DNA of 33,753 nucleotides from a virus, in IMG/VR virus record IMGVR_UViG_3300037508_000873, positions 1-33,753 of that record; one strand, written 5' to 3'. The notes beneath the pieces are model-generated. The model did no database searches. It worked only from the letters and a program-made list of their open reading frames with translations, and had not been told where the DNA came from. How positions within the stretch are numbered: position 1 is the stretch's first letter; each line of letters starts with the position of its first letter. Below are positions 11,001 to 30,298 of this stretch, piece after piece. Both the position numbers and the translations under genes were made by a program.

Positions 11001-14000
11001 AAAATTAGAATTTTATGATAATGAAGATTTCACTAATCAAAACTATGAGGCAAATGTTACTAGAACAGGTTCTCCTGGTGATGGTAACATCAATACAAAG
11101 GTATCTTTACGAATCGATGAATCTATTCCAGATACATTCTATTATAAATTAATCCCTGTAGGTATTTCTAGTATTACAAATAATGCCTTAGGATTGACTG
11201 TTGACAAAGATAATTTTGATGGCGGTAAGATTGAGGTTATTAATAGTGGCTATAAGGGAAATCATACTTTAGTATCTGTTGGAAATAGTGTATTTTACTT
11301 CAATTTAAATCAACCACCAGAAAGTTCTTCATATTTGCCTACTGGTGTTGCCACGGCATTTTATGTCACTTCATCTACAGCAGCTTCTGCTTCTGGTGCA
11401 ATTTCAAATATTAAAGTCAATTATCCTGGAGTTGGGTACAGACTCATACCTGGAATTACAACTGTAACAACTTCTTCTGGTTCTGGAAGTATATTGAGAG
11501 CCTATTCAGATACTATTGGTAAAATTAAAACTGTAAGTCTTGCTTTATCTGGTTATGATTATCCAACAGATAAAACTATCTCAGCAAAAGCAGACACTCC
11601 AATTCTTGTAAGAGTTAAAAATAATAATAGAATATCTAATGTAAGAATTGTTTCTGGTGGTAAAAATTATACAACTCCACCAAAATTAATTGCAGTTGGG
11701 TACGATAATTTACTTCTTAGTGCAAATTTAAGTGGCAATTCAGTTTCATCTGTTGATGTTTTAAACAATGTAGGCGGTTTAACAGAAGTTGGACCAACAA
11801 TCGTTCCAGTTTATAACAGCAATGGTGTCAGGATAATTGATGGATCTAGCTCTGGAACAGATGTAACTTTAAGTTTAAAAGCGCCTACAAATGGATTTAC
11901 AGTATTTCCATTTAATATTGGTGATCAAATTTTTGTTGAAGGTATTGTTGGTGTTGGAAGCACTGGATCTATTGGTGATGGTTATAATTCAGCAGATTAT
12001 GGTTATAAGAATTTTACTGTAACCCAAAGAGTTACAACTCTTGGAGCTGAAACTATTACATATTCAATTGCTGGAATTGGAACAACTGCAGGTACATTTG
12101 ATGTAGCAAATAGTGCTGGTAGAGTTATTAAAACATCAGATTTAGCATCTTTTGCATTAGATACTGAACAAACAGAATTTTATAGTAATGAAAAGGTTAT
12201 TGTCAATGAAAAAACCACTAAAGTTTTAACAAATGGGTGGGATAGTACTAGAAAACTTTTAAAAATTTCTGGTAAAGGAGTTAATCCTAAAGTAGGTGAT
12301 CTTATTACTGGTGCTTTGTCAGGTTCAATTGCTGAAATTGAAGAAGTCATCATTAATGATTCAAATTATAGCACAAGTTCTTCAGTCACTTTAAATTCAC
12401 AATCTACATGGTTAAGTAACTCTGGCGTTTTAAATGATTCTTTACAAAAAATACAAGATGGTGATTATTATCAAAACTTCTCATATTCAATTAAGAGCAC
12501 TGTTCCAAAGAGCACTTGGGAAGAGCCAGTTAATAGTTTAGTTCATTCAGTAGGATTTAAAAACTTTAGTGATTTAATCTTAAATAGCAGACCAGAAAAT
12601 CAAAATCTTAAAGTTGCAATCGGATCTTCTGATCTTACAACTACAGTAGCAATTGATAATGTAGTTTCAATGTATACAAAGTATAACTTTGATTTTGTCA
12701 GTGAAGAAGTAACTAATCAAGGAATTTCTAAATTTGTTAATTTTGAAAATACTAAATTAACTGATTATTCGATATGTAACAGTAACAAAGTTTTAAAAAT
12801 TGATGATATTAGCTCACAATTTACTGGAATAGGTAGTTTTGGAAACATAGTTGGGGTAACATCTTTCCCAATAAACAGTGGTGGAAATGTATTATTAAAG
12901 AAAACATTTAATTCTACAAATCTTTCAGTTGTTTCTGCTGGAAGTAGTATTCTTAATATTCCAAATCATGACTTTAATACGGGAGAGGAGTTAATTTACA
13001 ATCCAGGACCAGGTGGAAGTTTCATTTCAATTGCTTCAACTAATAGAACAGTTACTGGTGTTTCTACTACAAGATTACCTGTGACTGTATTTGCTTATAA
13101 AGTTGACAATAATAGAATAAAACTTTCGGGTATCAAAACAGATGCAACAACAAATAATATTTTCTTCTCATTTACAGCACTTTCTGGTATTGGGTCTACT
13201 GTAGGAGCTGGGCAAACACATTCATTAGCAACTTCATATGAAGTTGCCAATACTCGTGCATTAATTACTATCGATGGCATTATTCAAAGCCCACTTTATA
13301 GAAAAGCAGTTTCAACAGGATTAGCCAATATTGTTGGTGCAGCAGATACAACAATTAAACTTACTGGCATTACATCTATTGCAACAAATACACTATTCCA
13401 AATTGAAAGTGAAATTTTACAAGCACAGGTGGTTGGTTTAGGTTCTACTAATGTTGTTTCTGTATCTAGAGGTTTATTTGGCACTCCAAAAACTTCTCAT
13501 GGTGTTGGTGTTGCTGTAACTGTATTAGGTGGCGACTATAGTATTAGCGACGGTACAATTTATTTTGTAGCTCCTCCATATGGACCAGTCGGTGTTAATA
13601 CTTTACAGCCTGGAATTTCTACAAATTCATCTTTTGCAGGAAGAATATTCTATAGATTAAATTATAAAGAAAACTTCATATTTGACGATATTTCAAATCA
13701 ATTTAATGGAACTAAGAAAGTCTTTACATTACAATCAAATAGTCAAGATGTAACTGGTATCATAACTAGTGGAAATGTTAATTATGGAATTGTGTTGGTT
13801 AATAATATTAATCAACAACCAACAATTGATTATACTCTTGCTCAGAGAGTTTCTCCAGGTATCGGAGCATCAATTACATTTACTGGAACTGATATAGAAT
13901 CAATTCCTAGAGGTGGTATTATTGATGAGGTTGTAGCTGGATTTGGTTCGGCTTATCAACCATTGCAACAAGCAACAGCATTCTGTTCTGTTTCTGCTGG

Positions 14001-16860: not shown

Positions 16861-18492
16861 ATGGCAGCTATTATTACTGATCAATTTAGAATATTGAATG
16901 CCGAAACTTTTGTTAAAAGTTTTACGGGTATTGGTACTACTACCAATGTCTATTATACTTTTATAGGATTACCTAATTCAACTGATACTGTAACTGGATC
17001 TGGCACAACTGATTGGAACACAAATGTGCCAAATCCAAAAGATATGTTTAAAGAGCAGAATGATTATTATGATACTATGATCGCTCTGAAACGTGTGAAT
17101 TCTTCTGATTTGAGAAGAATGGTGAGAAAAGTTTCATGGGCTGCTGGAACGACCTATGACATGTACAAGGATACATATAGTTCTTCAAATCCAGCGCCAG
17201 TAACAAATGCAACAAGTTTATATGATTCAAATTTTTATATAGTCAATAGCAATTATAAAGTTTATATTTGTTTAAACAATGGAATGTCACCAGATTTTCC
17301 ATCTGGAAAACCTTCAATTGATGAACCAGATTTTACTGATTTAGAACCAAGAGCTGCTGGAACAAGTGGTGATGGATATATTTGGAAGTACTTATATACA
17401 ATTTCACCTTCTGATATTATTAAATTCGATTCAATTGATTATATGCCAGTTCCTTCCGATTGGGGATCTGGTCAAACTGCAGAAATTAAAAATAACGCAA
17501 TTAATGGAGAAATTAAAACTGTAATTATTGAAAATTCTGGTGCTGGATATCAACCAATTGGCACATCATTTAAAAATGTACCCATTCTTGGTGATGGTAC
17601 AGGTGGTAGAGTAACTGTTACTGTAGATAATTCTGGAAAAGTATCTAACGTTGAAGTCACTAGTGGTGGAACTGGTTATACTAGAGGTAGAATTCAATTC
17701 TATCCAGGTGCTCCTGGATCTGAAATTGGTGGAGCTATTTCTGGGTTAAGTGCTGTTGGGACAGGAACAACTTCTGTTGCATCGTTTGAAGTTATTATTC
17801 CTCCACAAGGAGGACATGGGTATGATGTTTATAAAGAACTGGGTGCTTATCGAGTTTTGGTTTATTCAAGATTTGAAACAACAGCATCAAATCCAGACTT
17901 TATCATTGGAAATGATTTTGCTAGAGTTGGTTTATTAAAGAACCCAACTGTTTATGGAAGTAAAACACAATTGTTAACAGCCTCTGAAGTGAGTGCTGTT
18001 GGTGGAGTCAAGCTAAAGAGTTTGACTGGTGGAAATGTGTCAGATACAACATATTCAGTAGATTCTACAATTACACAAACTACTGGTATTGGTTCAACAG
18101 CAGCTGGTATAGTCGCTGCGTGGGATAATGCTACTGGTGTATTAAAATATTATCAGCCTGTCGGATTAGGTCTTTCGTCTTATGGTTTTAGAGTAACTGA
18201 CTTTACTGATGCTATTGGTTATGGTGGAACTTACATTGTTAGTGGCGCTAGTGTTGGTTCTAATTTGGGAATTGATACTAGTTTTGGTAGTTCAGCAAAT
18301 CCAGGAACTGCTACAACAATTGGTTCTGGTACTAACACAAGATTAGTACCTTTAGGATTAAGATTTATTAATGGCGTTGCTCCACCAGAAGTAGAAAAAT
18401 ACTCTGGAGAAGTCATCTATATAGATAACAGAGCAGCAATTCCAAGATCTTCTACACAAAAAGAAGATATCAAAATTGTATTAGAATTCTAA
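16861..18492 (+). CDS. gp8: gp8, baseplate wedge subunit, enlarged by repeat modules
   Basis: The first 200 residues match T4-like gp8: DQFRILNAETFVKSF near the start, MYKDTYSSSN, SLYDSNFYIVNSNYKVYICL (119-138), and GDGYIWKYLYTISPSDIIKF (170-189). A later HGYDVYKELGAYRVLVYSRF then FARVGLLKNPT also fits. In T4, gp8 dimers bridge gp7, gp10 and gp6 in the wedge. T4 gp8 has 334 residues; this one has 543. Two GxGY repeats occupy residues about 216-285 (NSGAGYQPIG and TSGGTGYTRGRI), and a further beta-rich Gly/Ser segment fills 390-500. The extra length is therefore at least partly due to the module shared with gp7. The stop is four bases before the next ATG. Confidence 0.9.
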   Translation: MAAIITDQFRILNAETFVKSFTGIGTTTNVYYTFIGLPNSTDTVTGSGTTDWNTNVPNPKDMFKEQNDYYDTMIALKRVNSSDLRRMVRKVSWAAGTTYDMYKDTYSSSNPAPVTNATSLYDSNFYIVNSNYKVYICLNNGMSPDFPSGKPSIDEPDFTDLEPRAAGTSGDGYIWKYLYTISPSDIIKFDSIDYMPVPSDWGSGQTAEIKNNAINGEIKTVIIENSGAGYQPIGTSFKNVPILGDGTGGRVTVTVDNSGKVSNVEVTSGGTGYTRGRIQFYPGAPGSEIGGAISGLSAVGTGTTSVASFEVIIPPQGGHGYDVYKELGAYRVLVYSRFETTASNPDFIIGNDFARVGLLKNPTVYGSKTQLLTASEVSAVGGVKLKSLTGGNVSDTTYSVDSTITQTTGIGSTAAGIVAAWDNATGVLKYYQPVGLGLSSYGFRVTDFTDAIGYGGTYIVSGASVGSNLGIDTSFGSSANPGTATTIGSGTNTRLVPLGLRFINGVAPPEVEKYSGEVIYIDNRAAIPRSSTQKEDIKIVLEF

Positions 18493-18496
18493 GAAG

Positions 18497-21400
18497 ATGC
18501 CTCAGAATACAAACCTCAACACAGCACCATATTTTGACGATTTTAGCGAAGATAAGAATTTTAAGCGTGTTCTATTTAAACCTGGAACACCAATTCAGTC
18601 CAGAGAATTAACTACTTTACAATCCATACTTCAAAATCAAATTGAAAGTTTTGGTAAACACTTTTTTAAAGAGGGTGCAAAAGTAATTCCAGGACAAACA
18701 TCATATGATAACCAATATGAATATGTTCAAGTAAATAATACATTTTTTGGCACAGATGTAAGGGATTATATTTCCCTTTTAATTGGAAAAAGTATTGTTG
18801 GGGCAACTTCTGGCGTAACTGCCACAGTAATTAATGCTATTACTGATTCTGATTCAGATAGAAATACTAATACTTTATATGTTCGCTATGTAAAATCTAA
18901 CAGCACTGATTTTACTGGATCTAAATTTGAAAATGGTGAGGAACTAATTACTGAATCTACCATATCTACCGACAACATTTTAATTGAATCTGGTAGTTCT
19001 TTTGCATCATGTATTTCAGAAAATGCAACTGGAATGGCATCTTCTGCTGCAATATCTGAAGGTGTTTATTTTATCCGAGGTCATTTTGTAAAAGTAATTA
19101 GTGAATCTGTAGTATTAGATCAATACGGAAATGCACCTAGTTACAGGATCGGTCTATTAATTAATGAGGAAATTGTTACAGCATTTGACGATGATTCATT
19201 ATATGATAACGCGCAAGGATATTCAAATTATTCTGCTCCTGGGGCAGACAGGTTTAAAATTTCAACAACTTTAGTTAAAAAAGATTTAACTGACTTTAAT
19301 GATGAAAATTTCATTGAATTGATGAGAATTGAAAATGGTATTCTTCAATCATTTGTAAGAGAATCTGTTGGAGATACCATTAGAGATGAGCTTGCAAGAA
19401 GAACATTTGATGAATCTGGAAATTATATTGTAGATGCGTTTGAATTATTTGCGAAAGAAAGTTTAAATGATTATGAAGGTAATGGAGGAATCTATACAGA
19501 ACAGCAAACTACCTCAGAAGGAAATACTCCATCAGATTCACTTGCACTTTTACAAGTATCTCCTGGAAAAGCTTATGTAAAAGGTTATGAAATTGGAAAA
19601 ATTTCTAACACCTTCATTGATATTGAAAAGCCAAGAACTTCAAACACTGTAGAGTCATATTCATTAACTTTTAATTCAACCGCAAAAATTGCAGTCAACA
19701 ATGTCACAGGTTCTGCTCAGGTTGGATTTGGAACAACGACAACACTATTACTTTCAGACTCCAGAGTTGGAAGTAATGGATTAGTTTTTTCTGGCAATGA
19801 AATTGGTGTTGCTAGAATATATGATCATAAATCACAAGATTCAAGATATTCAAGTGATCTTACAAAATATGAACTTTTTGTATACGATATACAGACATAT
19901 ACTAAAGTTTCAATTTCAACAACAATCACTTTAAATACTCCAGCATTTATTAAAGGTAATAGTAGTGGAGCTACTGGATATTTACAATCATCAATTTCAG
20001 CATCTCCAAATTTAACTTTATACTGTAGTAATGGTTCGTTTATACAAGGCGAAACTATTTCTGTAAACGGAATCAGTTCTGCTCCAACTATTGTTTCAGT
20101 TCGTGATTACGATTTTAGTGATGTAAAATCTATTTACTCTCAAGTTGGCATCAACACATTTACTGCCGATTTAGATTTATCACTTGTAAAATTAATTGCC
20201 CCTCAAGGAACTCAATTTACAATTACTAGTGGTGGAAGTGTTACTGTAGGTCTAACATCTGCAGCTTCAGTTGGAATTAAGACTGGAGATATTATTAGAT
20301 ATACTAAAACTGGAAATACAGTATCAACATATAATAGAGTTACTGCGGTAAGTCCATCTACCAATACATTCACAGTCGCTGGAATTACTAGTGTAACTAA
20401 TATATGCGATGGAACTTTACCAGCAGCTAATATTAGTGTCAATGATCTTGTAATTGTTAATCCTGAAATTATTAATGGTGGTAATTCTACTCTTATAACT
20501 CCATTACCACAAAAAGATATTAGTAATTTAGATTTAATATCATCTCAAGTAAAAGTTAAAAAAACATATACTCTTGCAATATCTGGAAGTCAAGCAACAG
20601 TAACAGAAACTGATCTAAATCTATTTTTTGCAGAATTTGATGTAGAAGATTATATATTATCATATTCTAATGGAAATGTAGAGCCACTACGCAGTGGACA
20701 AGTAACATTTACAAATGGAAACAAAACAATTACAATAACGCAATTATCAGTTGCAACTGATTCTAGTGCAAAATTAATTGCATCTTTAAATAAAATTAAT
20801 GCATCATCAAAACAAAAAGTTTTAAATCGTTGTGCTACAGTAACAATTAGCAGATCAACCGCTGGAGGTTCTGGAATAGGAACTTCATCATTAAATGATG
20901 GATTAACTTACAGCACAATCTATGGAACAAGAGTTCAAGATGATGAAATTTCTCTAAATGTTCCTGATGTTTTGCGTGTACATGCTATTTTTGAATCTAA
21001 CGATACTGCAACACCAACTCTTCCACAATTATCATTAGTAGAAATTTCTGGTTCACTTTTAAATGCAATTCAAGGTGATGTAATTGTTGGAACAGAAACT
21101 AAAGCAAGTGCAAGAGTAATTTCAACTACAGCATCAACTGTAAATTTTGTTTATATAACTGAAAAAACATTTAAATTAGAAGAATCTGTAACTTTCAAAA
21201 AATCTGGTATTTTTGCAACAATTTCAAATGTAACAGATGGAGATCCTGAAATTACAGAAAATTATAGTCTTGATTCTGGATCTAGATTAGAATTTTTAGA
21301 TTATGGTAGAATTGTTAGAAAAAGCACTGCACAAACACCAACTCGTCAAATAACAGTAGTATTTGATCATTATACTGTACCTTCTGGCGATGCGGGCGAT

Positions 21401-24400
21401 TTTGTCTCCTTCTCTAGCTATGATTCGGATTTATATTCAAGAGATATTCCATCAATTAGAGATCTAAGATCTACTGATTCAATTGATATTAGACCTAGAG
21501 TTGCAAACTACAATACTTCCACAGATACTTTATCACCATTTGAATTTAAAACAAGAAGTTTTATATCTTCTGGAACTTATTCAAATTATCCAATTTATCC
21601 AAATAGTCAAATAATATTAGGATATTCATATTACTTACCAAGAATTGATAAACTTCTCCTAACCAAAGAAGGATTTTTTGAACTTAGAAAAGGTGTTCCA
21701 TCTGATAATCCAATTCCACCTATTGATATTTCAACATCATTAGATGTTGCTACAATTAGATTGAGACCTTATGTTTATAGTGTCAAACAAGATATTACAA
21801 TAGCGCCTACACAACATAAGCGTTATACGATGGCAGATATTACAAAACTTGAAAATAGACTTGCCAACGTTGAACAATACACAGCACTATCACTTTTAGA
21901 AAGTGATACTTCAAATTTAACAATTAGAGATTCTCAGACTGGTTTAGATAGATTTAAGTCTGGATTCTTTGTTGATAATTTTAAAAATCATATTGGACAT
22001 ATTTTAAGCGGAAAGTCAAGTATTGATACCCTTAAAGGTGAACTACGACCATCACACTATACTACAGGAATTGATCTTTTAATTGGATCACAATCTCTTG
22101 TTGGTGTGGGATCAACTGCTAATCAAAATGCAGATGCTAGATTTGTTGACGATTTACAATCACCTAATTTAAAGAGAACAGGATCATTAATAACACTTTC
22201 GTACACTGAAACTATTGCGGCACAGCAAAGATTTGCAACTAGAACCGAAAATGTAAATCCATTTGCAGTTGCAACTTGGATTGGAAATATTGAATTAGCG
22301 CCTTCATCTGATACGTGGATTGCTGAAAACAGATTAGCAATTAGAAATATTGAAGACGAAGGTTCATTCAACGCATTAATTAATGCTTTAGGTGCTGATC
22401 CAAATACAGGTCTTGCACCTACTGATTGGGGTTCATGGCAAGAAGTTTGGTCTGGACAAACTGTTGTTGGAAATGAACTTGTTAGATCAGAAACAAACAC
22501 ACAACAACTTTCGGACACTGGTTGGACAAATACTGGTGCTAGAAGAGGTAATTGGCCCTTCTTAGAACAGACAAGAACTTCTGCGTTCTTAGATACGACC
22601 ACAAATACAAATTTACTTACAACAAGAACTGATACACGTCTTTCTAGAAATGGAATTAATTTCCAAGTTTCTCCAAGAGTTGATCGTAGATCTTTAGGAT
22701 CATCAGTTGTAAGTAGAGATATTATTCCATTCTTAAGATCAAGAAATATTGAATTTGTTGCAAAACGAATGAGACCAAGAACTCAGTTCTATGCATTCTT
22801 TGATAAAGTTGCTATGACTGATTATTGTGTTCCAAAACTTCTAGAAATTTCTATGGTTAGTGGAACCTTTGCAGTTGGAGAAACTGTTGTTGGTTATCTT
22901 CCTGGAACAACTTTAAGAAATTCAGATAATACATTAATTAGGTTTAGAGTAGCACAATCTAATCACAAATACGGAGCTTATAATTCTCCAACACAAACCT
23001 TTGATTTAAATCCATATGAAGATACTTTAACATTAGCACAAAATTATTCTTCAACGGCTACAGTATTAAATATTGATACATTTAGTCTTGGAGCAACAGC
23101 TGATAGTGAATTTTATGGCAGAGTCGTTGCAGACATGGTTCTTGTTGGACAAACAAGCGGCGCTCAAGCAACTGTAAGAGATATACGTTTAGTTTCGGAT
23201 AGAAATGGCACTTTAATTGGATCACTCTTTATACCAGATCCTGCTTCTCCAACGGAGCCAGAATTTGAAACTGGTAGAAAGACTTTATTATTAACGGCAA
23301 ATAGAAATAATAATCCAATTCCAGGTTCATTTAATAGTCAAGCAGAAGTTGTATTTACTTCTTCGGGTGAACTTAATACAACACAAGAAACTGTTATTTC
23401 TACAAGAAATGCAGATGTTCAAAGAACTCAAGTTACTGATACAACAACAGTTTCACAAACTGTTTCGACATTAACAAGATCAACAACTGCTGAAACAAGA
23501 ACTGTTACCAATCAAAACTGGTATGATCCTATTGCCGAAACTTTCTTAGTTACGGATGACGGTGGCATTTTTGTAACATCTTTAGATGTATTTTTTGCTA
23601 CTAAAGACGATAATATTCCTGTCACTTGCCAAATCAGAACTACTCAAGTTGGTACTCCAACTTCTACTATTATCGCATTCAGTCAAGTTACTCTTGAATC
23701 AAGTCAAGTTCAAACGTCAAACGATGGTAGTGTTGCTACAAGATTTACATTCTCTTCACCAGTATACCTTGAAGGAAATGGTAGAGAATATGCAATCGTT
23801 CTTCTTTCAGATTCCAATCAATATACTGTTTGGATTTCTAGAATGGGAGAAGTTGAAATTGGAACAGCAAATCTATCAGAAAATCAGAGAGTAATTGTAT
23901 CGCAACAACCTTACCTTGGTTCACTATTCAAATCACAAAACGGATCAACTTGGGATCCAAGCCAATTAGAAGACTTGAAATTTGTTCTTAATAAGGCGCA
24001 ATTTACCACAGATCCTGGTGTATTTAAACTATACAATCCTAAACTGGGTGTTGCTAATGGTCAAAGACCAATTTTAAGACCAAATCCAATTCAAACAATA
24101 TCAAAAGAAGTTATTGTTGGTTTAGGTTCAACAGTTCCAACCACATTTTTAACTCCTGGAGTAACTATAACACAACTTAATAATACAAATACCACTGGTA
24201 AACTTTCTAGAGTTACTGGAGCTATTGCAATCAACAATACTCAAGCTCTTCAAGTTAATAATGTTGGTAGTGGATTAACTCCATCTGCAAGTAACTTTAC
24301 CTTTACTGGTGTAAATCTAACGTCAATCAGTGGCGTTGGAACAGGCGCTCAAATGCAAATCACCATTAGTAGTGGCAACATTGGTGTCATTACAGTTACA

Positions 24401-25957
24401 AATGGTGGACGTGGTTATGCAGTTGGTGATGTTTTAACTGCAAGAATTGGTTCAGTAAGCGAGAATGTAAGATTTAATGTGGGTATTGTATCGGCAGCAA
24501 ATCAATTGACCCTAACAAATGTCCAAGGAAACTTTGACACTATTAACCAAATTGCTTGGACAGTTGGTAGCGGTCCTAACGTAGGTATTGCATCAACTCT
24601 TCCTGCAGTTCCATCAACAATTACTAATAATCCAGATAAAACTGGATTGTATATGAAAGTTTCACACAGAAATCATGGAATGCATGGTAGAAATAATAAG
24701 GTGACAATTTCTAATGCAATTTCAGATTTAAGTCCAATAAGTCTTTCTGCTGAATATTTAAATGCAGCAACTACAAACCTTCCAGTTTCTGCTGTAGGAA
24801 TCTTTACAAGTTTTGAAAATGTTGGTGTTTCAAGCACAAATCCTGGTTACATTAAGATTAACAATGAAGTTCTTAGCTACACTGGAACAAATGCAAGTGT
24901 TTCTCCTCAAGTTTTAACAGGAATTTCTAGAGCAATCGATAATACAGTTGCTCAAACACATTCAGTCAATTCTCCAGTAATGAAATACGAATTAAATGGC
25001 GTTTCATTACGAAGAGTCAATACTACACATAATTTTGTCGATGTTGATGTTGCTAATGAAATCGATTTAGATTCTTATTATGTTAAAGTCAATACTGCTG
25101 CTTCTGGTTTAGGAACGGCACGAGATGGTAGTAATGGGCTTCCAATTTTAGCATTCAATAATACAGCACAAGCTGGTGGTAGAAGCGTTAGAGCAACACA
25201 AAATGTACAATTTGAAACGATGACTCCTAACGTTCAGGTTATGCTTCCAACTACTACGCAGATCTCAACAAGAGTTAGAACTGTTAGTGCAACTAGTGTC
25301 GATGGAACTGAAATTTCTTTCCAAGATCAAGGTTATGAGCCTATTAATTTAAATGAGCAAAATAGTTTCACAACTCCTAGAATTATTTGTTCTGAAATTA
25401 ATGAATTGCAGCATCTCCCATCTTTACCAGGAAATAAGTCATTTACAATGGAAATGACATTATCTACCCAAAATAGAAATGTGTCTCCTGTAATTGATCT
25501 AGATAGAATTAACGTCATTACAACTACAAATAGAATCAATCGTGCTGTTACTGATTTTATAGGTGATAACCGAGTAGATTCTGACTTGTTAGATCCTAGT
25601 GCAGCTGTTTATGTAACCAAGAGAATTGATCTTGAAACTCCCGCTACTGCACTTGACGTAAGATTCGCAGCGTTCCGTGACGAAAGTAATGATATTAGAG
25701 TTCTGTACAAGTTATACAGACCTGATGCTCCAGATGGCGATCAGCCATACATTTTATTCCCTGGATATGGAAATCTTTCGGATGGAACTCCAGACAGAAA
25801 CATAGCTTCTAGTAATAATGGTGAATATTTAGATTATAAGTTTACAGCAAATAATCTACCAGAATTTACTGGATTTACAATTAAAGTTGTATTAAATGGA
25901 ACAAATCAGGCTATTGTTCCTAAATTAAAAGAATTCAGAGCCATTGCACTAGCATAA
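18497..25957 (+). CDS. Giant DUF4815-type virion structural protein (2486 aa)
   Basis: The N-terminus is the DUF4815 signature: NTAPYFDDFSEDKNFKRVLF then GTPIQSRELTTLQSILQNQI (residues 8-51) and GKHFFKEGAKVIPG. It continues as a conserved cyanophage structural protein, with VNPFAVATWIGNIELAPSSD (about 1252-1271), a coiled or helical stretch around 1115-1140, and DPIAETFLVTDDGGIFVTSL (about 1677-1697). The C-terminal 600 residues hold a degenerate GxGY copy (NGGRGYAVGDVLTARIG, about 1970), an IxxExLxYTG...RAxDxTxAxxH unit and a final beta-rich domain. Several SGAxAxV modules also occur. It takes the place of T4 gp9/gp10 in the gene order and is probably a peripheral baseplate or fibre-attachment protein; this is inference. 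One uninterrupted frame, no signal peptide. Confidence 0.85.
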   Translation: MPQNTNLNTAPYFDDFSEDKNFKRVLFKPGTPIQSRELTTLQSILQNQIESFGKHFFKEGAKVIPGQTSYDNQYEYVQVNNTFFGTDVRDYISLLIGKSIVGATSGVTATVINAITDSDSDRNTNTLYVRYVKSNSTDFTGSKFENGEELITESTISTDNILIESGSSFASCISENATGMASSAAISEGVYFIRGHFVKVISESVVLDQYGNAPSYRIGLLINEEIVTAFDDDSLYDNAQGYSNYSAPGADRFKISTTLVKKDLTDFNDENFIELMRIENGILQSFVRESVGDTIRDELARRTFDESGNYIVDAFELFAKESLNDYEGNGGIYTEQQTTSEGNTPSDSLALLQVSPGKAYVKGYEIGKISNTFIDIEKPRTSNTVESYSLTFNSTAKIAVNNVTGSAQVGFGTTTTLLLSDSRVGSNGLVFSGNEIGVARIYDHKSQDSRYSSDLTKYELFVYDIQTYTKVSISTTITLNTPAFIKGNSSGATGYLQSSISASPNLTLYCSNGSFIQGETISVNGISSAPTIVSVRDYDFSDVKSIYSQVGINTFTADLDLSLVKLIAPQGTQFTITSGGSVTVGLTSAASVGIKTGDIIRYTKTGNTVSTYNRVTAVSPSTNTFTVAGITSVTNICDGTLPAANISVNDLVIVNPEIINGGNSTLITPLPQKDISNLDLISSQVKVKKTYTLAISGSQATVTETDLNLFFAEFDVEDYILSYSNGNVEPLRSGQVTFTNGNKTITITQLSVATDSSAKLIASLNKINASSKQKVLNRCATVTISRSTAGGSGIGTSSLNDGLTYSTIYGTRVQDDEISLNVPDVLRVHAIFESNDTATPTLPQLSLVEISGSLLNAIQGDVIVGTETKASARVISTTASTVNFVYITEKTFKLEESVTFKKSGIFATISNVTDGDPEITENYSLDSGSRLEFLDYGRIVRKSTAQTPTRQITVVFDHYTVPSGDAGDFVSFSSYDSDLYSRDIPSIRDLRSTDSIDIRPRVANYNTSTDTLSPFEFKTRSFISSGTYSNYPIYPNSQIILGYSYYLPRIDKLLLTKEGFFELRKGVPSDNPIPPIDISTSLDVATIRLRPYVYSVKQDITIAPTQHKRYTMADITKLENRLANVEQYTALSLLESDTSNLTIRDSQTGLDRFKSGFFVDNFKNHIGHILSGKSSIDTLKGELRPSHYTTGIDLLIGSQSLVGVGSTANQNADARFVDDLQSPNLKRTGSLITLSYTETIAAQQRFATRTENVNPFAVATWIGNIELAPSSDTWIAENRLAIRNIEDEGSFNALINALGADPNTGLAPTDWGSWQEVWSGQTVVGNELVRSETNTQQLSDTGWTNTGARRGNWPFLEQTRTSAFLDTTTNTNLLTTRTDTRLSRNGINFQVSPRVDRRSLGSSVVSRDIIPFLRSRNIEFVAKRMRPRTQFYAFFDKVAMTDYCVPKLLEISMVSGTFAVGETVVGYLPGTTLRNSDNTLIRFRVAQSNHKYGAYNSPTQTFDLNPYEDTLTLAQNYSSTATVLNIDTFSLGATADSEFYGRVVADMVLVGQTSGAQATVRDIRLVSDRNGTLIGSLFIPDPASPTEPEFETGRKTLLLTANRNNNPIPGSFNSQAEVVFTSSGELNTTQETVISTRNADVQRTQVTDTTTVSQTVSTLTRSTTAETRTVTNQNWYDPIAETFLVTDDGGIFVTSLDVFFATKDDNIPVTCQIRTTQVGTPTSTIIAFSQVTLESSQVQTSNDGSVATRFTFSSPVYLEGNGREYAIVLLSDSNQYTVWISRMGEVEIGTANLSENQRVIVSQQPYLGSLFKSQNGSTWDPSQLEDLKFVLNKAQFTTDPGVFKLYNPKLGVANGQRPILRPNPIQTISKEVIVGLGSTVPTTFLTPGVTITQLNNTNTTGKLSRVTGAIAINNTQALQVNNVGSGLTPSASNFTFTGVNLTSISGVGTGAQMQITISSGNIGVITVTNGGRGYAVGDVLTARIGSVSENVRFNVGIVSAANQLTLTNVQGNFDTINQIAWTVGSGPNVGIASTLPAVPSTITNNPDKTGLYMKVSHRNHGMHGRNNKVTISNAISDLSPISLSAEYLNAATTNLPVSAVGIFTSFENVGVSSTNPGYIKINNEVLSYTGTNASVSPQVLTGISRAIDNTVAQTHSVNSPVMKYELNGVSLRRVNTTHNFVDVDVANEIDLDSYYVKVNTAASGLGTARDGSNGLPILAFNNTAQAGGRSVRATQNVQFETMTPNVQVMLPTTTQISTRVRTVSATSVDGTEISFQDQGYEPINLNEQNSFTTPRIICSEINELQHLPSLPGNKSFTMEMTLSTQNRNVSPVIDLDRINVITTTNRINRAVTDFIGDNRVDSDLLDPSAAVYVTKRIDLETPATALDVRFAAFRDESNDIRVLYKLYRPDAPDGDQPYILFPGYGNLSDGTPDRNIASSNNGEYLDYKFTANNLPEFTGFTIKVVLNGTNQAIVPKLKEFRAIALA

Positions 25958-25958
25958 A

Positions 25959-26180
25959 ATGAACAATCATTATGATCGGGATTTAATACCCGTAGAAGGA
26001 AATAGTACTTTAAAAAGAGATTCTTATTCATCAGCCATTATCAATACTGATAAATCTGCTTATGAAAAGTATATACTCCTAAAGGAACAAAAAACTAAAG
26101 AACGAGAAGAAATTGATTCACTAAAATCTGAGCTGGCAGAAATTAGAACAATGCTAGCTCAATTAGTTGCCAAGTTATAA
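25959..26180 (+). CDS. Small conserved coiled-coil protein (73 aa)
   Basis: The ATG is one base after the upstream stop. The 73-residue product begins MNNHYDRDLIPVEGNSTLKRD, where the RDLIPVEGN stretch is a conserved feature of a small protein found beside this giant structural gene in cyanophages. Residues 34-73 form a heptad-like helix (YEKYILLKEQKTKEREEI, then LKSELAEIRTMLAQLV), with Leu/Ile at a and d positions. It probably oligomerises or acts as an assembly partner of the DUF4815 protein. Its TAA stop lies inside the next late-promoter box. Confidence 0.75.
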   Translation: MNNHYDRDLIPVEGNSTLKRDSYSSAIINTDKSAYEKYILLKEQKTKEREEIDSLKSELAEIRTMLAQLVAKL

Positions 26181-26183
26181 ATA
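26176..26183 (+). promoter_or_regulatory. T4-type late promoter before the fibre/neck operon
   Basis: A perfect TATAAATA overlaps the stop codon of the 73-residue gene and lies 26 bases before the next ATG. It is the only intergenic gap of this size until gp16, so it likely drives the genes from 26210 through gp13-gp16. A downstream TATAAT at 26193 lacks a properly spaced -35. Confidence 0.8.
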
Positions 26184-26209
26184 TTTAAAGACTATAATAG
26201 TATGCAGGC

Positions 26210-26551
26210 ATGTCTGTACGAGTTGTAAATTTAGTAATACCTCAAGGAACAGATTTTTCAACATCATTTATGCTTGAAGAATATAATGATTTACCTATTG
26301 ATTTAAATGGGTATACAGGCACTTGTCATATTAAAAAACATCCATCAAGCATTACAAAGCATCCGATGGTTGTAACCTTCCCAACTCCTGATTATGGCGA
26401 AATTAAAATTTCAATAGGATCTACAGCATCTTCTTCAATAAAAGAAGGTAGATATCTTTATGATGTTTTACTGACTGAAACAGCAACTGGATTGAAAACC
26501 CGTGTAGTTGAAGGAACAGTAACAGTTACTGCAGGAGTGTCAACCTCATGA
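26210..26551 (+). CDS. Small beta-rich virion-type protein (113 aa)
   Basis: The 113-residue protein looks like a single beta-sandwich domain: VNLVIPQGTDFSTSFMLEE (6-24), a strand with DLNGYTGTCHIKK (31-43), DYGEIKISIGSTASSSI, then GRYLYDVLLTETATG and VVEGTVTVTAGV. The G-x-(D/Y)-F...F-x-L-x-D...L-x-G-(Y/W) layout followed by R-Y-x-Y-D-(V/L) and EGxxxVxxGV is like N-terminal domains of baseplate upper-protein (BppU) type and other short phage structural domains. It is therefore likely a baseplate or fibre accessory protein, though this is inferred from pattern only. Its stop overlaps the start of the next gene (ATGA). Confidence 0.7.
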   Translation: MSVRVVNLVIPQGTDFSTSFMLEEYNDLPIDLNGYTGTCHIKKHPSSITKHPMVVTFPTPDYGEIKISIGSTASSSIKEGRYLYDVLLTETATGLKTRVVEGTVTVTAGVSTS

Positions 26552-26757
26552 CAGAGTTTAATACCAGAATATCCGACCAAAACAGGATAAAAGTTACCAC
26601 AAATTTGAGAGGTGTAACTAATTTACACCAATTAACTAATGTAGATGTTACCAACTTAGCTGACAATTCTTTTTTAGTTTATGATTCTGACACTGGAAAA
26701 TGGACTGCTACTAGTTCAATTTCTGTAGGTGTGCTCCTAGATGGAGGGACCTTCTGA
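26548..26757 (+). CDS. Small fibre-like protein (69 aa)
   Basis: The gene overlaps the upstream stop by four bases and its own TGA overlaps the next ATG. The 69-residue product has TNVDVTNLADNSFLVYDSDT (31-50) followed by GKWTATSSISVGVLLDGGTF. The phrase (S/D)xLVYDSxTGKWxA is common in phage tail-fibre and neck-appendage proteins, where it sits between collagen-like or beta-helical repeats. The final LLDGGTF resembles the start of a fibre repeat cut short. It may be a split-off piece of a larger fibre gene or a small trimer-forming adaptor. The function is not established. Confidence 0.7.
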   Translation: MTEFNTRISDQNRIKVTTNLRGVTNLHQLTNVDVTNLADNSFLVYDSDTGKWTATSSISVGVLLDGGTF

Positions 26758-27902
26758 TGGCTATTGGAGCAACTATTTTAGTTAAAAGAACAGCAGGGGT
26801 TTCTTCTCTTCCCACACTAAGATATGGTGAAATTGCAGTATCCATATCCACAGGAACTTTTGCAAATCAAGGTGGAAGATTGTGGATTGGTGATGAAGTT
26901 GGTAATCCTATTCCTGTTGGTGGTAGATACTATACAAATTTATTGACCGTTGAGCCTGGAATAGCTACTGCTGGAAAAGCATTAATTTTAAATAACAGTG
27001 GGGCGATTGACAATTTAACCATTACTGGATCTTTAAATGTAAGTGGAGTAACAACTTTTTCTTCTGGGAGTGGGTTTACATTAGAAGCAATTGGAATTTC
27101 ATCCAATGTCATTAGCTCAAAGGTAGGAACTGGAAATGTAATATACTTAGATCCATATCCAACTGGAAGTAATGAAGGAAAGGTAGTAATTAAAGGAGAT
27201 CTTGAGGTTTATGGTCAAACAAGCAATATAAATTCTAGAACTGTAACTGTTGAGGAATCTATATTAGCATTAAGTGATCCAACTTCAATACGAAATGTAT
27301 ATGGTTCTGCTGGTATTGGTACAAATGTAATACCTTTAGACTCAATTTCTGGAATTAACACTGGCGATGTTCTTAGAGGAGTTGCTGCATTACCGCTTAC
27401 AGATGCTTTAAGAAGAATTACTTCTTACAATACTGCTAATAAAACTGTAAGTATTGCTGGAACAATTTCTGCTGGAATATCTTCTGGAACAGAAATTACT
27501 GTTGTATATGGATGGGATACTCAAACAAATAGAGGTGTTTCTTTTACATACAATGATGATTCTGTTGGTTTAGGAACAACAGCGTCTTTAACTGGTTTCT
27601 TTGGCTTCCAAGATTACAACAAGAGATTTACTTTTGTTCCAAATGCAACTATTGGTGTCACAACATCTACAGGAATTCGTGGATATGTAAGTGGTACAAA
27701 AGGTTATCTTGATATTAAAGGTATCTACTATCAATTAGAAGACACTAGCACAAATGGTGTTGTATATTTTGATAATACTGGATTAATGAATTCCACAACA
27801 AGTCCTGGTAGCGGAATCACAACATCCAACTATATACTTACAACACAACCAGGAACAAATGTTCCTGTTTGGACTAGCACAATTGATGGTGGAGAATATT
27901 AA
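26757..27902 (+). CDS. Tail-fibre-like virion structural protein (381 aa)
   Basis: The N-terminus (LVKRTAGVSSLPTLRYGEIA, then GGRLWIGDEVGNPIPVGG) is the domain by which phage fibres of this kind declare a count of objects: LPTLRYGEIAVS...RLWIGD. Next come short beta-helix-like strands (IDNLTITGSLNVSGVTTFSS, 84-103), and a GDLEVYGQTSNINSRTVTVE segment (147-166) followed by ESILALSD. This last motif is typical of trimeric phage fibre shafts (L-x-V-x-G...N-S-x-T-V-x-V-x-D-x-I-L-x-L). The C-terminal half is beta-rich, with an end near TTQPGTNVPVWTS. It is probably a baseplate- or neck-linked fibre. It is in the position of T4 wac/fibre genes just before gp13. Confidence 0.75.
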   Translation: MAIGATILVKRTAGVSSLPTLRYGEIAVSISTGTFANQGGRLWIGDEVGNPIPVGGRYYTNLLTVEPGIATAGKALILNNSGAIDNLTITGSLNVSGVTTFSSGSGFTLEAIGISSNVISSKVGTGNVIYLDPYPTGSNEGKVVIKGDLEVYGQTSNINSRTVTVEESILALSDPTSIRNVYGSAGIGTNVIPLDSISGINTGDVLRGVAALPLTDALRRITSYNTANKTVSIAGTISAGISSGTEITVVYGWDTQTNRGVSFTYNDDSVGLGTTASLTGFFGFQDYNKRFTFVPNATIGVTTSTGIRGYVSGTKGYLDIKGIYYQLEDTSTNGVVYFDNTGLMNSTTSPGSGITTSNYILTTQPGTNVPVWTSTIDGGEY

Positions 27903-27904
27903 AC

Positions 27905-28087
27905 ATGAACAGTGAAATTGATATTAATATTTTAGTGAAAACATTTTCAGATAGAATGATGAATTTATATAAAGATAATGCAATATTGGAGGCAAAGTAT
28001 CAAAGTTTACTTCAAGATTATGCAGAGTTGCAAGAGACAAAAAATGAATTGCAAACAGAAATAAACAAAAGTAATAGAGAGCCATGA
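27905..28087 (+). CDS. Small coiled-coil protein before gp13 (60 aa)
   Basis: The ATG lies two bases after the upstream stop. The 60-residue product is almost one helix: INILVKTFSDRMMNLYKDNA (8-27), then ILEAKYQSLLQDYAELQETK and NELQTEINKS with heptad spacing of Leu/Ile/Tyr, so a parallel coiled coil is likely. No other domain is present. It overlaps the gp13 start (ATGA). A short coiled-coil protein at this place could be a chaperone or an oligomerisation partner of the neighbouring fibre, but there is no direct evidence. Confidence 0.75.
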   Translation: MNSEIDINILVKTFSDRMMNLYKDNAILEAKYQSLLQDYAELQETKNELQTEINKSNREP

Positions 28088-28887
28088 AACCATCCAGCAG
28101 ACAACAACTTATTGATTATTGCCTAAGAAGATTAGGTTATCCCGTGCTGGAAATTAATGTAGATGATGATCAAATAGACGATCTTGTTGATGATGCCTTA
28201 CAATATTTTCAAGAACGTCATTTTGACGGTGTTGAAAAAATGTATTTAAAATATAAGATTACTCAAGATGATATTGATAGGGCAAAAGCAAATGATACCA
28301 CTAGTAAAACTGTAGGTGTAACAACTTTCAATTATCTAGAGTCTAAAAATTATATTGAAATTCCCGATAGTGTAATTGGTGTTGAGGGCATTTTTAGATT
28401 TGATGATAGCACATTTTCAAGTGGAATGTTCAATATTGCCTATCAAATTTTCTTGAATGATGTTTATAATTTTACATCAATTGAACTTCTTAATTATGCT
28501 ATGGTTAAAGAATATTTGGAAACTATTCAATGGCTTATCAGTCCACAAAAGAAAATTAGATATACAAAAAGACAGAATAGACTTTATATTGATATGAATT
28601 GGTCAAGTGTTGCTGTAAATAGTTACATTATTATTGATTGTTATCGCATTTTGGATCCTGCAGATTTTCCAAAAGTTTGGAATGACTCATTCTTAAAGCA
28701 ATATTTAACTGCTATGATTAAAAAGCAGTGGGGTCAAAATATGATTAAGTTCCAAGGAGTTAAACTTCCTGGAGGTGTTGAATTGAATGGAAGACAAATA
28801 TATGAAGATGCAATTAATGAACTTGCAGATATTAAATCTAGAATGTCTTCTGATTATGAATTGCCACCTTTAGATATGGTAGGATAA
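28084..28887 (+). CDS. gp13: gp13, neck protein
   Basis: The 267-residue protein resembles T4 gp13 (309 residues), which with gp14 forms the neck that closes the filled head and joins the tail. Diagnostic segments are the N-terminal SSRQQLIDYCLRRLGYPVLE (4-23), then INVDDDQIDDLVDDALQYF (24-42), the EYLETIQWLISPQKKIRYTK stretch, the RLYIDMNW strand, and ECYRILDP-like DCYRILDPADFPKVWND. The C-terminal KQYLTAMIKKQWGQNMIKF and VKLPGGVELNGRQIYEDA are also highly typical of T4-like gp13. It overlaps the upstream coiled-coil gene by four bases and is followed by gp14 after one base. Confidence 0.93.
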   Translation: MKPSSRQQLIDYCLRRLGYPVLEINVDDDQIDDLVDDALQYFQERHFDGVEKMYLKYKITQDDIDRAKANDTTSKTVGVTTFNYLESKNYIEIPDSVIGVEGIFRFDDSTFSSGMFNIAYQIFLNDVYNFTSIELLNYAMVKEYLETIQWLISPQKKIRYTKRQNRLYIDMNWSSVAVNSYIIIDCYRILDPADFPKVWNDSFLKQYLTAMIKKQWGQNMIKFQGVKLPGGVELNGRQIYEDAINELADIKSRMSSDYELPPLDMVG

Positions 28888-28888
28888 T

Positions 28889-30298
28889 ATGGCATTAAAT
28901 CCATATTTTATACAAGGAAATAGAGGAGAACAAAGACTTCTTCAAGATCTCATTAATGAGCAGTTGAGGATGTATGGAGTCAATATTGGGTATTTGCCAA
29001 GATCATATGCTATTGAAGATGGAGTTATTCAAGAAAATATTCTAGCACGTTTTAATGATAATTACTACATGGAGGCTTATGTAAATACTTGGGGAGGTTT
29101 TGGTGGCGGCGGAGATTTGCTATCAAAGTTTGGTGTTCAGGGAAATGATGATTTATCTTTAATTATTTCTAGAGAAAAATTTGAAGATTTTATTTCGCCA
29201 TTTATTGAAGCAGAACTTGTAGAAGAAAATTTAAAAATTAGTAACAGACCTAAAGAAGGTGACTTAATTTATTTTCCTTTAACAGATACTTTATTTGAAG
29301 TAAAATTTATAGAGCATGAAGTAGAATTTTATCAATTAAATGGATTATATGTTTATGAATTAAAATGTGAGCCATTCAAATTTGAAGATGAAGTTATTGA
29401 TACTGGCGCATATGACGTTGACACTTCAGTAGCCGATAAAGGTATTGATGCAATATTAACATTAGTTGGAACTGCAAACACAGCTGGTGCAGGAACAACA
29501 GTAATACCTTTCGGAGCAGTTCAAAAAGTTAATTTGGTTAATGATGGTTGGGGTTATACTAGCACTCCAACTGTCACATTCTCAGCTGCTCCTGCAGGAG
29601 GAAGAACTGCTACTGCGGTAGCAATTACTACAAGTAAATCGATAGTTGGATATACAACCAGTCTTTCTATTGAAAGAATTGTTCTTACAAATCCTGGTGG
29701 CGGATATACTGTTGCTCCAACAATTACAATTAGTGGTGGTGGAGGATCTGGAGGAATAGCAACGGCTTCTCTTGGAAATGGAACAATTTCAAATATTCAA
29801 ATTAATAATGCTGGATCAAACTATTCAAGAAAACCCACAATTACTATTTCATCTCCATCAGGAGCTGGAACTACAGCTACTGCAGAAGTTTTTATTACAA
29901 ACGGAAGCGTGTCAAACATATATGTAACAAACGCAGGATCTGGATATACGTCAACACCAACTATAACACTGTCTCATCCTGGAGTTGGAACAGGAAATTA
30001 CTTATACAATGAAGTAATCACTGGAGAAACATCAGGGACACAAGCTATTGTTAAAAATTGGGATGCTAAGGATAGGCAATTAAAAGTATACAGACTGTCT
30101 GGCAAATTTACTCCTGGAGAGGTTATCGTTGGATCTGCTGGAACTTATCATACTGGTATTGGTTCTACTGGCAGATATATATTTAAATCTGCAAATTATT
30201 TTGTAGATGAAGATTTATATGCTCAGAATACTCAGATAGAAAACGAAGCTGATACATTTTTAGATTTTTCTGAGACTAATCCATTTGGAGAATACTGA
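28889..30298 (+). CDS. gp14: gp14, neck protein with an inserted repeat domain
   Basis: The first 180 residues match T4-like gp14: GNRGEQRLLQDLINEQLRMY (10-29), GYLPRSY, VNTWGGFGGGGDLLSKFGVQ (65-84), LIISREKFEDFI and the EVKFIEHEVEFYQLNGLYVY stretch. The last 30 residues (QIENEADTFLDFSETNPFG) are the usual gp14 end. T4 gp14 has 256 residues; this one has 469. The extra part is inserted before the C-terminal end: four GxGY repeats at about 211-365 (NDGWGYTSTP, NPGGGYTVAP, NAGSNYSRKP, NAGSGYTSTP), then an SGTQAIVKNW...FTPGEVIVG module at about 371-416. So the core neck function is expected, with an added surface domain. The start of gp15 overlaps the stop. Confidence 0.9.
   Translation: MALNPYFIQGNRGEQRLLQDLINEQLRMYGVNIGYLPRSYAIEDGVIQENILARFNDNYYMEAYVNTWGGFGGGGDLLSKFGVQGNDDLSLIISREKFEDFISPFIEAELVEENLKISNRPKEGDLIYFPLTDTLFEVKFIEHEVEFYQLNGLYVYELKCEPFKFEDEVIDTGAYDVDTSVADKGIDAILTLVGTANTAGAGTTVIPFGAVQKVNLVNDGWGYTSTPTVTFSAAPAGGRTATAVAITTSKSIVGYTTSLSIERIVLTNPGGGYTVAPTITISGGGGSGGIATASLGNGTISNIQINNAGSNYSRKPTITISSPSGAGTTATAEVFITNGSVSNIYVTNAGSGYTSTPTITLSHPGVGTGNYLYNEVITGETSGTQAIVKNWDAKDRQLKVYRLSGKFTPGEVIVGSAGTYHTGIGSTGRYIFKSANYFVDEDLYAQNTQIENEADTFLDFSETNPFGEY
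29521..29990 (+). repeat. Four GxGY repeats inside gp14
   Basis: Residues 211-365 of gp14 contain four units of about 40 residues: VNLVNDGWGYTSTPTVTF, IVLTNPGGGYTVAPTITI, IQINNAGSNYSRKPTITI and IYVTNAGSGYTSTPTITL. Each is followed by a Gly-rich turn and an A-x-A-x-V strand. These are closer to each other and to the gp7 copies than to anything in the rest of gp14. Confidence 0.8.

Follow-up and report, generated by a model that had tools for sequence, protein, structure and literature searches.

A paired GxGY repeat of cyanophage neck and baseplate proteins as a probable plug-in beta-domain shared with other phages and bacteria

Immunoglobulin (Ig)-like domains are found in tail and capsid proteins of phages (Fraser et al. 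2006, as cited in PMC10385173), and the additional domains carried by tail sheath proteins sit away from the tube, according to a survey (PMC9230969). Domain I of the T4 tail sheath protein gp18 is an outward, six-stranded barrel that binds the retracted long tail fibres (PMC3004832). In the T4 neck, the C-terminal arm of gp14 (amino acids (aa) 178-256) stays disordered until the tail is attached, and binds gp15 afterwards (PMC12270204). Here we analysed an IMG/VR record of 33,753 bases (IMGVR_UViG_3300037508_000873; this whole stretch is called the window), which comes from a T4-like cyanophage and holds a T4-like structural operon with gp25, gp6, gp7, gp8, a DUF4815 protein, gp13, gp14, gp15 and the terminase region. 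Four of the encoded proteins, gp7, gp8, the DUF4815 protein and gp14, carry a repeat with the motif GxGY. We propose that this motif probably marks one half of a surface-displayed, two-repeat beta-domain of ~80 residues, plugged into host proteins and used like the Ig-like domains of phages.

GxGY repeats in four virion proteins

An earlier note on this DNA had claimed that one module is common to the four proteins, and had proposed scanning all proteins of the phage and its relatives with a profile of the gp14 copies. A hidden Markov model (HMM) was built solely from the four copies of gp14. This seed HMM scored 30.6, 21.7 and 12.1 bits in gp7 and 7.1 bits in gp8, the best value among 800 shuffled proteins (50 per protein) being 3.0 bits; the DUF4815 protein reached only 1.0 bits. 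After iteration of the HMM over IMG/VR relatives, for which the null maximum was 6.5 bits, four copies were detected in gp14 (33-39 bits each), 13-14 in gp7, two in gp8 (24.3 bits and a weak 5.0 bits) and one half-pair in the DUF4815 protein (8.4 bits). As a non-circular test, we used a pair profile, a two-repeat model made from 78 bacterial and tail-sheath pairs and zero cyanophage sequences. With a null maximum of 7.5 bits, it yielded 65.1 bits in gp14 (E = 3e-21), 45.4, 43.0, 42.2 and 36.6 bits in gp7, 21.4 bits in gp8 (E = 1.5e-7) and 13.3 bits at aa 1913-1997 of the DUF4815 protein (E = 5e-5). When the same profile was compared by hhalign, the gp14 repeat windows gave 99% and the gp8 window 97%, against 0.5% or less for eleven non-repeat windows of the same proteins. 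At the level of sequence profiles, these results confirmed that the GxGY units of the four proteins are homologous beyond composition; the claim of a common module was borne out, with significant matches between proteins in the seed HMM, pair profile and hhalign comparisons.

The copy numbers given in that note (four in gp14, ten or more in gp7) agreed with the iterated HMM. Two copies had also been counted in gp8, where the second is strong and the first diverged; two further GxGY strings of this protein, at aa 170 and 318, are not repeats but belong to motifs conserved in T4 gp8. For the DUF4815 protein "at least one" unit had been reported; the module is present, as a diverged pair instead of a single unit. 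All copies had been placed between 16861 and 30298, an interval that leaves out gp7 (5062-16830). Their positions in the window are the following.

29513..30028, plus strand: gp14 array of four GxGY repeats, aa 209-249, 260-297, 298-338 and 339-380 (33-39 bits each; pair profile 65 bits)
17506..17757, plus strand: gp8 GxGY pair, aa 216-299, strong second and diverged first copy (24.3 and 5.0 bits; pair profile 21.4 bits; hhalign 97%; conserved in A2)
24233..24487, plus strand: diverged pair of the DUF4815 protein, aa 1913-1997 (pair profile 13.3 bits, E = 5e-5)
7189..7434, plus strand: gp7 pair, aa 710-791 (27.7 and 35.3 bits; pair profile 43 bits)
7753..7821, plus strand: gp7 single weak copy, aa 898-920 (6.0 bits; position kept in several relatives)
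8245..8622, plus strand: gp7 three-repeat run, aa 1062-1187 (20.2, 25.0 and 26.0 bits)
9286..9468, plus strand: gp7 copy of the GxNYxVGD type, aa 1409-1469 (16.7 bits; pair profile 8.6 bits)
11395..11832, plus strand: two clear gp7 copies, aa 2112 and 2191, with a degenerate partner after each of them (21.1 and 15.9 bits; pair profile 11.8 and 9.7 bits)
14002..14406, plus strand: gp7 three-repeat run, aa 2981, 3021 and 3074 (21.9, 15.6 and 13.3 bits; pair profile 42 bits)
15103..15291, plus strand: gp7 copy near aa 3370 (17.5 bits)
16162..16338, plus strand: gp7 copy near aa 3718 (11.3 bits)

The pair region of the DUF4815 protein (2,486 aa) scored above 6 bits in only 4 of the 48 full-length homologues. 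The gp14 assignment comes from Pfam PF11649 (T4 gp14 neck protein), matched at 94.0 bits (gathering score 25) over aa 3-172, the N-terminal beta-barrel region, and the nearest relative of this gp14 is that of Synechococcus phage DSL-LC03 (Kyanoviridae; 53%). For gp8, PF09215 (T4 gp8) scored 37.8 bits (gathering score 25), and a C-terminal motif is also present in T4 gp8. The 3,922-aa gp7 scored 18.8 bits with the baseplate wedge model PF23786 (cut-off 27) and was assigned because of the synteny gp25-gp6-gp7-gp8 and of orthologues annotated as gp7. T4 gp14 and T4 gp8 do not contain the repeats. In alignments to them, the gp14 array falls within the C-terminal arm, past the conserved beta-barrel and ahead of the C-terminal end, and the gp8 pair lies mid-protein, downstream of the conserved GDGYxWxYL region. 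The repeats had been credited with much of the extra length of both proteins over their T4 homologues, which holds for the array of gp14 (~80%, 172 of 213 aa) but only to ~36% (75 of 209 aa) for the pair of gp8; in marine cyanophages, the GxGY array accounts for much of the extra length of gp14. In DSL-LC03, a protein annotated as pre-baseplate central spike (L118:35274-37433) also has GxGY repeats (21.7 and 16.5 bits), which extends the module to one more tail protein in a relative.

A repeat pair interrupting host proteins

Outside the cyanophages, the repeats were found to interrupt proteins that are otherwise collinear with solved homologues. In the sheath of Escherichia phage ECOO78, residues 5-142 match residues 2-134 of a solved pyocin sheath and residues 227-474 match its residues 135-383, so that 84 aa are inserted between two adjacent residues. 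Similarly, on either side of the pair, a Pseudomonas tail tube protein (19-121 and 216-267) can be aligned with residues 1-103 and 113-164 of a solved tube protein, and a Niabella SusD protein (42-448 and 533-629) with residues 10-434 and 437-535 of a solved SusD homologue. At one sheath site, related phages have 0 (ZRG1), 2 (ECOO78) or 4 (KA2-1) repeats, the matched part of ECOO78 having 67% identity to ZRG1, and KA2-1 having 80% identity to ECOO78; KA2-1, with the four-repeat sheath, is a Klebsiella phage (L216:98-1774). The tail tube protein has 0 repeats in phage D3 and 2 in PseuP_224. Two repeats of ~38 aa therefore interrupt collinear host proteins in sheath, tube and SusD, as they do in gp14 and gp8 compared with T4. 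Since such two-repeat units come and go at one sheath or tube site, their effect on virions is directly testable in lytic laboratory phages.

Bacterial and archaeal genomes were scanned with one pair from the ECOO78 sheath as query, which gave at least 236 relatives. The 80 that were analysed span Bacteroidota, Verrucomicrobiota, Planctomycetota, Chloroflexota, Pseudomonadota, Bacillota and others. Among the matches listed, clusters of 2, 4, 6, 8, 10 and 12 repeats occurred 85, 19, 13, 3, 1 and 2 times, and clusters of 1, 3, 5, 7 and 15 repeats 4, 4, 3, 1 and 1 times. For clusters of three or more repeats, 38 of 47 were even and 9 odd (binomial p = 1.2e-5, loci unthinned for relatedness). Even copy number was found in bacteria, sheath, tube and gp14, but not throughout gp7. 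According to Pfam, the carriers comprise Phage_sheath, Phage_TTP_11, a T4 gp8-like protein, SusD (8 loci), PilY1, dockerin/glucanase and PATR (autotransporter-type) proteins, that is, virion or mostly cell-envelope and secreted families. Searches of Pfam and NCBIfam yielded no model that spans the GxGY repeat, whether in the window proteins or in the bacterial carriers. In the Bacteroidota SusD group the pair lies inside the SusD_RagB domain (L137, L140, L144, L145, L163, L177, L180 and L214), with just one half of the pair detected in L163 and L214.

Each repeat is laid out as a strand (xVxxIxVTN), a loop with GxGY and TxxP, a short strand, a glycine-rich turn and a further strand (GATATAxV). 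AlphaFold models of gp14 and gp8, made from shallow alignments, were poor overall (mean predicted local distance difference test (pLDDT) 51 and 50). In the gp14 array, which was modelled with three strands per repeat, the ten-residue mean pLDDT was mostly 62-86, and in the gp8 pair pLDDT was about 70-79. These modest-confidence models support three strands per repeat and would give six per pair. A comparison of the gp14 model with a viral fold library found other cyanophage and phage proteins with a similar region, none of which provided a fold name. In the domain that we propose, the two ~38-residue repeats would jointly fold into one beta-domain of ~80 residues, whose ends would come close together and so fit a loop of the host protein, leaving the host fold undisturbed; the mobile unit is the repeat pair. 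On virions, the domains would face outward from the sheath and the tail tube and, in this phage, from the neck ring, where they sit in the C-terminal arm of gp14, and from the rim of the baseplate through gp7, gp8 and the DUF4815 protein.

Several observations weigh against this proposal. Searched against PDB sequences, the repeat profile gave chance matches only, so the canonical repeat occurs in no solved structure, and fold searches found no significant PDB match for the gp14 model or for the gp8 model, whose best match was T4 gp8 (E = 0.087); because both models are weak and neither has a significant PDB match, the fold is unproven. The two-repeat query favours arrays of at least two, which does not explain the evenness above two, and the bacterial cluster statistics include related loci. 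Pairing is imperfect in gp7, with its three-repeat runs and singles. The localisation of an FGE-sulfatase carrier (L160) is unverified, and the outward orientation is deduced from knowledge of the carriers and not from coordinates.

Role, ancestry and neighbouring features

Because the module elsewhere interrupts tail sheath, tail tube and cell-surface SusD proteins, surface display is the most plausible setting, in line with the idea, already raised in the earlier note, that it decorates the virion surface. By analogy with phage Ig-like domains, the domains may provide weak multivalent adhesion to cell-surface glycans or steady the tail appendages, and be dispensable for assembly of the host protein itself, a role that we put forward tentatively; adhesion would be their likeliest benefit. 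The pairs could instead be spacers or cement that stabilise the neck, at the gp14-gp15 contact, and the baseplate of a large virion. It is the C-terminal arm, which binds gp15 in T4 (PMC12270204), that holds the gp14 array, and the copy number and position of this array are strictly conserved; gp14 keeps exactly four repeats in all 34 of the 34 full-length orthologues, which makes a neck-stabilising role a serious rival. However, the sheath or tube pair is gained or lost between related phages, unlike an essential contact, and the SusD and secreted carriers of bacteria do not serve in any such assembly. We hold this structural role to be possible but somewhat unlikely.

A different origin would make the module a diverged relative of T4 gp18 domain I. 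The six strands of that barrel would match a repeat pair, and its GSNYxVGD motif aligned to the module with an hhalign score of 19.4, above the highest values reached by 100 column shuffles (13.0) and by 11 control windows (12.4). Single sheaths scored up to 12.1 bits with the pair profile (null 7.5), and, of three mutations known to prevent retraction of the fibres (PMC3004832), one, G106S, apparently falls in the GSNYxVGD motif. Nevertheless, the alignment spans 20 columns only (hhalign probability 7%, E = 0.005), another tandem profile gave a smaller margin (17.8, shuffle maximum 15.9), T4 itself scored 3.1 bits, under the null maximum, and the best match of Pfam Gp18_dom_I (PF22639) was 12.6 bits, at aa 1413-1434 of gp7, for a cut-off of 27. 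On profile similarity the link is suggestive, a lead and not homology, and we regard this descent as unlikely. That paired GxGY units form an unnamed, promiscuous beta-domain superfamily, moving as a unit between virion and bacterial surface proteins across many phyla and including gp18 domain I as a diverged member, appears rather improbable; if gp18 domain I did belong to it, the domain would serve generally for docking appendages or for adhesion.

The earlier note had further suggested that the module was exchanged within the structural operon. Copies of gp7 would then have seeded gp14, gp8 and the DUF4815 protein through intragenomic recombination, an idea favoured by the location of all four genes in one operon and by the excess of copies in gp7. 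Copies were compared one by one among five phages with gp7, gp8, the DUF4815 protein and gp14 (Bellamy gp7 being partial). For 77 of 80 gp14 copies, against an expected 20.4, the best partner in a different phage was again a gp14 copy, and for 64 of 80 it had the same index; the gp14 copies are positionally orthologous. The spacing of gp7 copies was retained in fragments down to ~40% identity, and a tree of 87 copies grouped them by protein (13 label changes, 27.7 in shuffles). These results, together with the constant number of gp14 copies, indicated that the copies are old and vertically inherited in this cyanophage group; in more distant phages, gp14 has two copies (syn9) or four (P-HM2). 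A recent transfer from gp7 to gp14 was rejected on the best-partner and copy-number tests, and the sequences do not support recent exchange from gp7 within the operon. The tree (42 columns, 50 of 84 branches unresolved) did not resolve the donor of the gp14 and gp8 copies, and thus gave no answer as to their origin from gp7. Copies outside cyanophages are equally good, which makes independent acquisition possible, and exchange may have predated these Kyanoviridae. What stands of the suggestion is a homologous module in both neck and baseplate; its spread across many bacterial phyla and unrelated phages shows that it is no speciality of the structural operon, and we consider seeding from gp7 quite unlikely.

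Finally, a likeness due to Gly/Ser/Thr-rich composition alone, for which it could be argued that the repeats seem to be masked as low complexity and that a bare pair found nothing by tblastn, is so improbable that we rejected it, since shuffled proteins never approached the real scores with the seed, iterated or pair profiles, the profile from unrelated bacteria reached cyanophage copies at E = 3e-21 and hhalign gave 97-99%. That tblastn search, of the bare pair against phages and plasmids, had zero matches and missed even its own source record, most likely through low-complexity masking, and hence cannot be read as absence. The literal motif strings and a description of the cyanophage repeat were not found in the literature, which was covered mostly without subscription papers and is weak evidence of absence. 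The domain is widespread, yet Pfam and NCBIfam both lack it and BLAST apparently misses it owing to masking, so that phage and bacterial surface proteins have long segments without annotation.

A second shared module of 37 residues (M2), absent from the earlier note, is common to gp14, gp8 and the DUF4815 protein, scoring up to 50.5 bits for a null maximum of 5.0. Its rough consensus is IxGxTSGxxAxVxxWDxxTxxLxVxxxxGxFxxGExI, and it lies at these positions.

30017..30127, plus strand: M2 in gp14, aa 377-413, directly downstream of the GxGY array (49.3 bits)
18082..18168, plus strand: M2 in gp8, aa 408-436 (31.2 bits)
19949..20059, plus strand: M2 in the DUF4815 protein, aa 485-521 (50.5 bits)
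21083..21190, plus strand: M2 in the DUF4815 protein, aa 863-898 (32.9 bits)
22829..22888, plus strand: partial M2 in the DUF4815 protein, aa 1445-1464 (15.8 bits)

In syn9 gp14, an FTVGEEIVG stretch precedes the GxGY pair and the remainder of M2 follows it. Between GxGY runs, gp7 has a YHYH domain (PF14240, 84 bits; 8800-9096), and its aa 3561-3670 (15742-16071), possibly a beta-propeller-like segment, matched the F510_1955 family glycosylhydrolase below the cut-off (E = 2.4e-5). A small protein at 26210-26551 had a sub-threshold match to an LtfC-like beta-sandwich domain (E = 2.4e-4), and relatives at the same position carry the annotation L-shaped tail fibre assembly.

Comparison with described systems

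Cyanophage copies of the repeat are already contained in PHROG 460 (Hc2/gp14), 438 (gp8), and 708 and 2885 (baseplate wedge), all of which gp14 matches through its repeat region; these are whole-protein families, in which the module is not isolated as a domain. The additional tail sheath domains (PMC9230969) resemble the GxGY pair as extra beta-rich domains inserted away from the tube contact, whereas that survey groups most of them as Ig-like and, in its passages on repeats and insertions, describes neither the GxGY pair nor its presence outside sheaths. Domain I of T4 gp18 (PF22639; PDB 3FOA) is likewise an outward beta-barrel inserted in a sheath and has the GSNYxVGD motif, but its second half is without a clear motif, it has an alpha-helix and the match is below the Pfam cut-off. 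The phage Ig-like domains, such as those of Hoc, differ in that the GxGY unit consists of two ~38-aa internal repeats and also interrupts SusD proteins, and no Pfam Ig-family match was found at the repeats of gp7, gp8, gp14, the DUF4815 protein or the bacterial carriers. In their probable use the two are alike: Ig-like domains are small beta-domains on varied virion proteins of unrelated phages, often in tandem, which are present or absent in close relatives and are thought to help weak adhesion.

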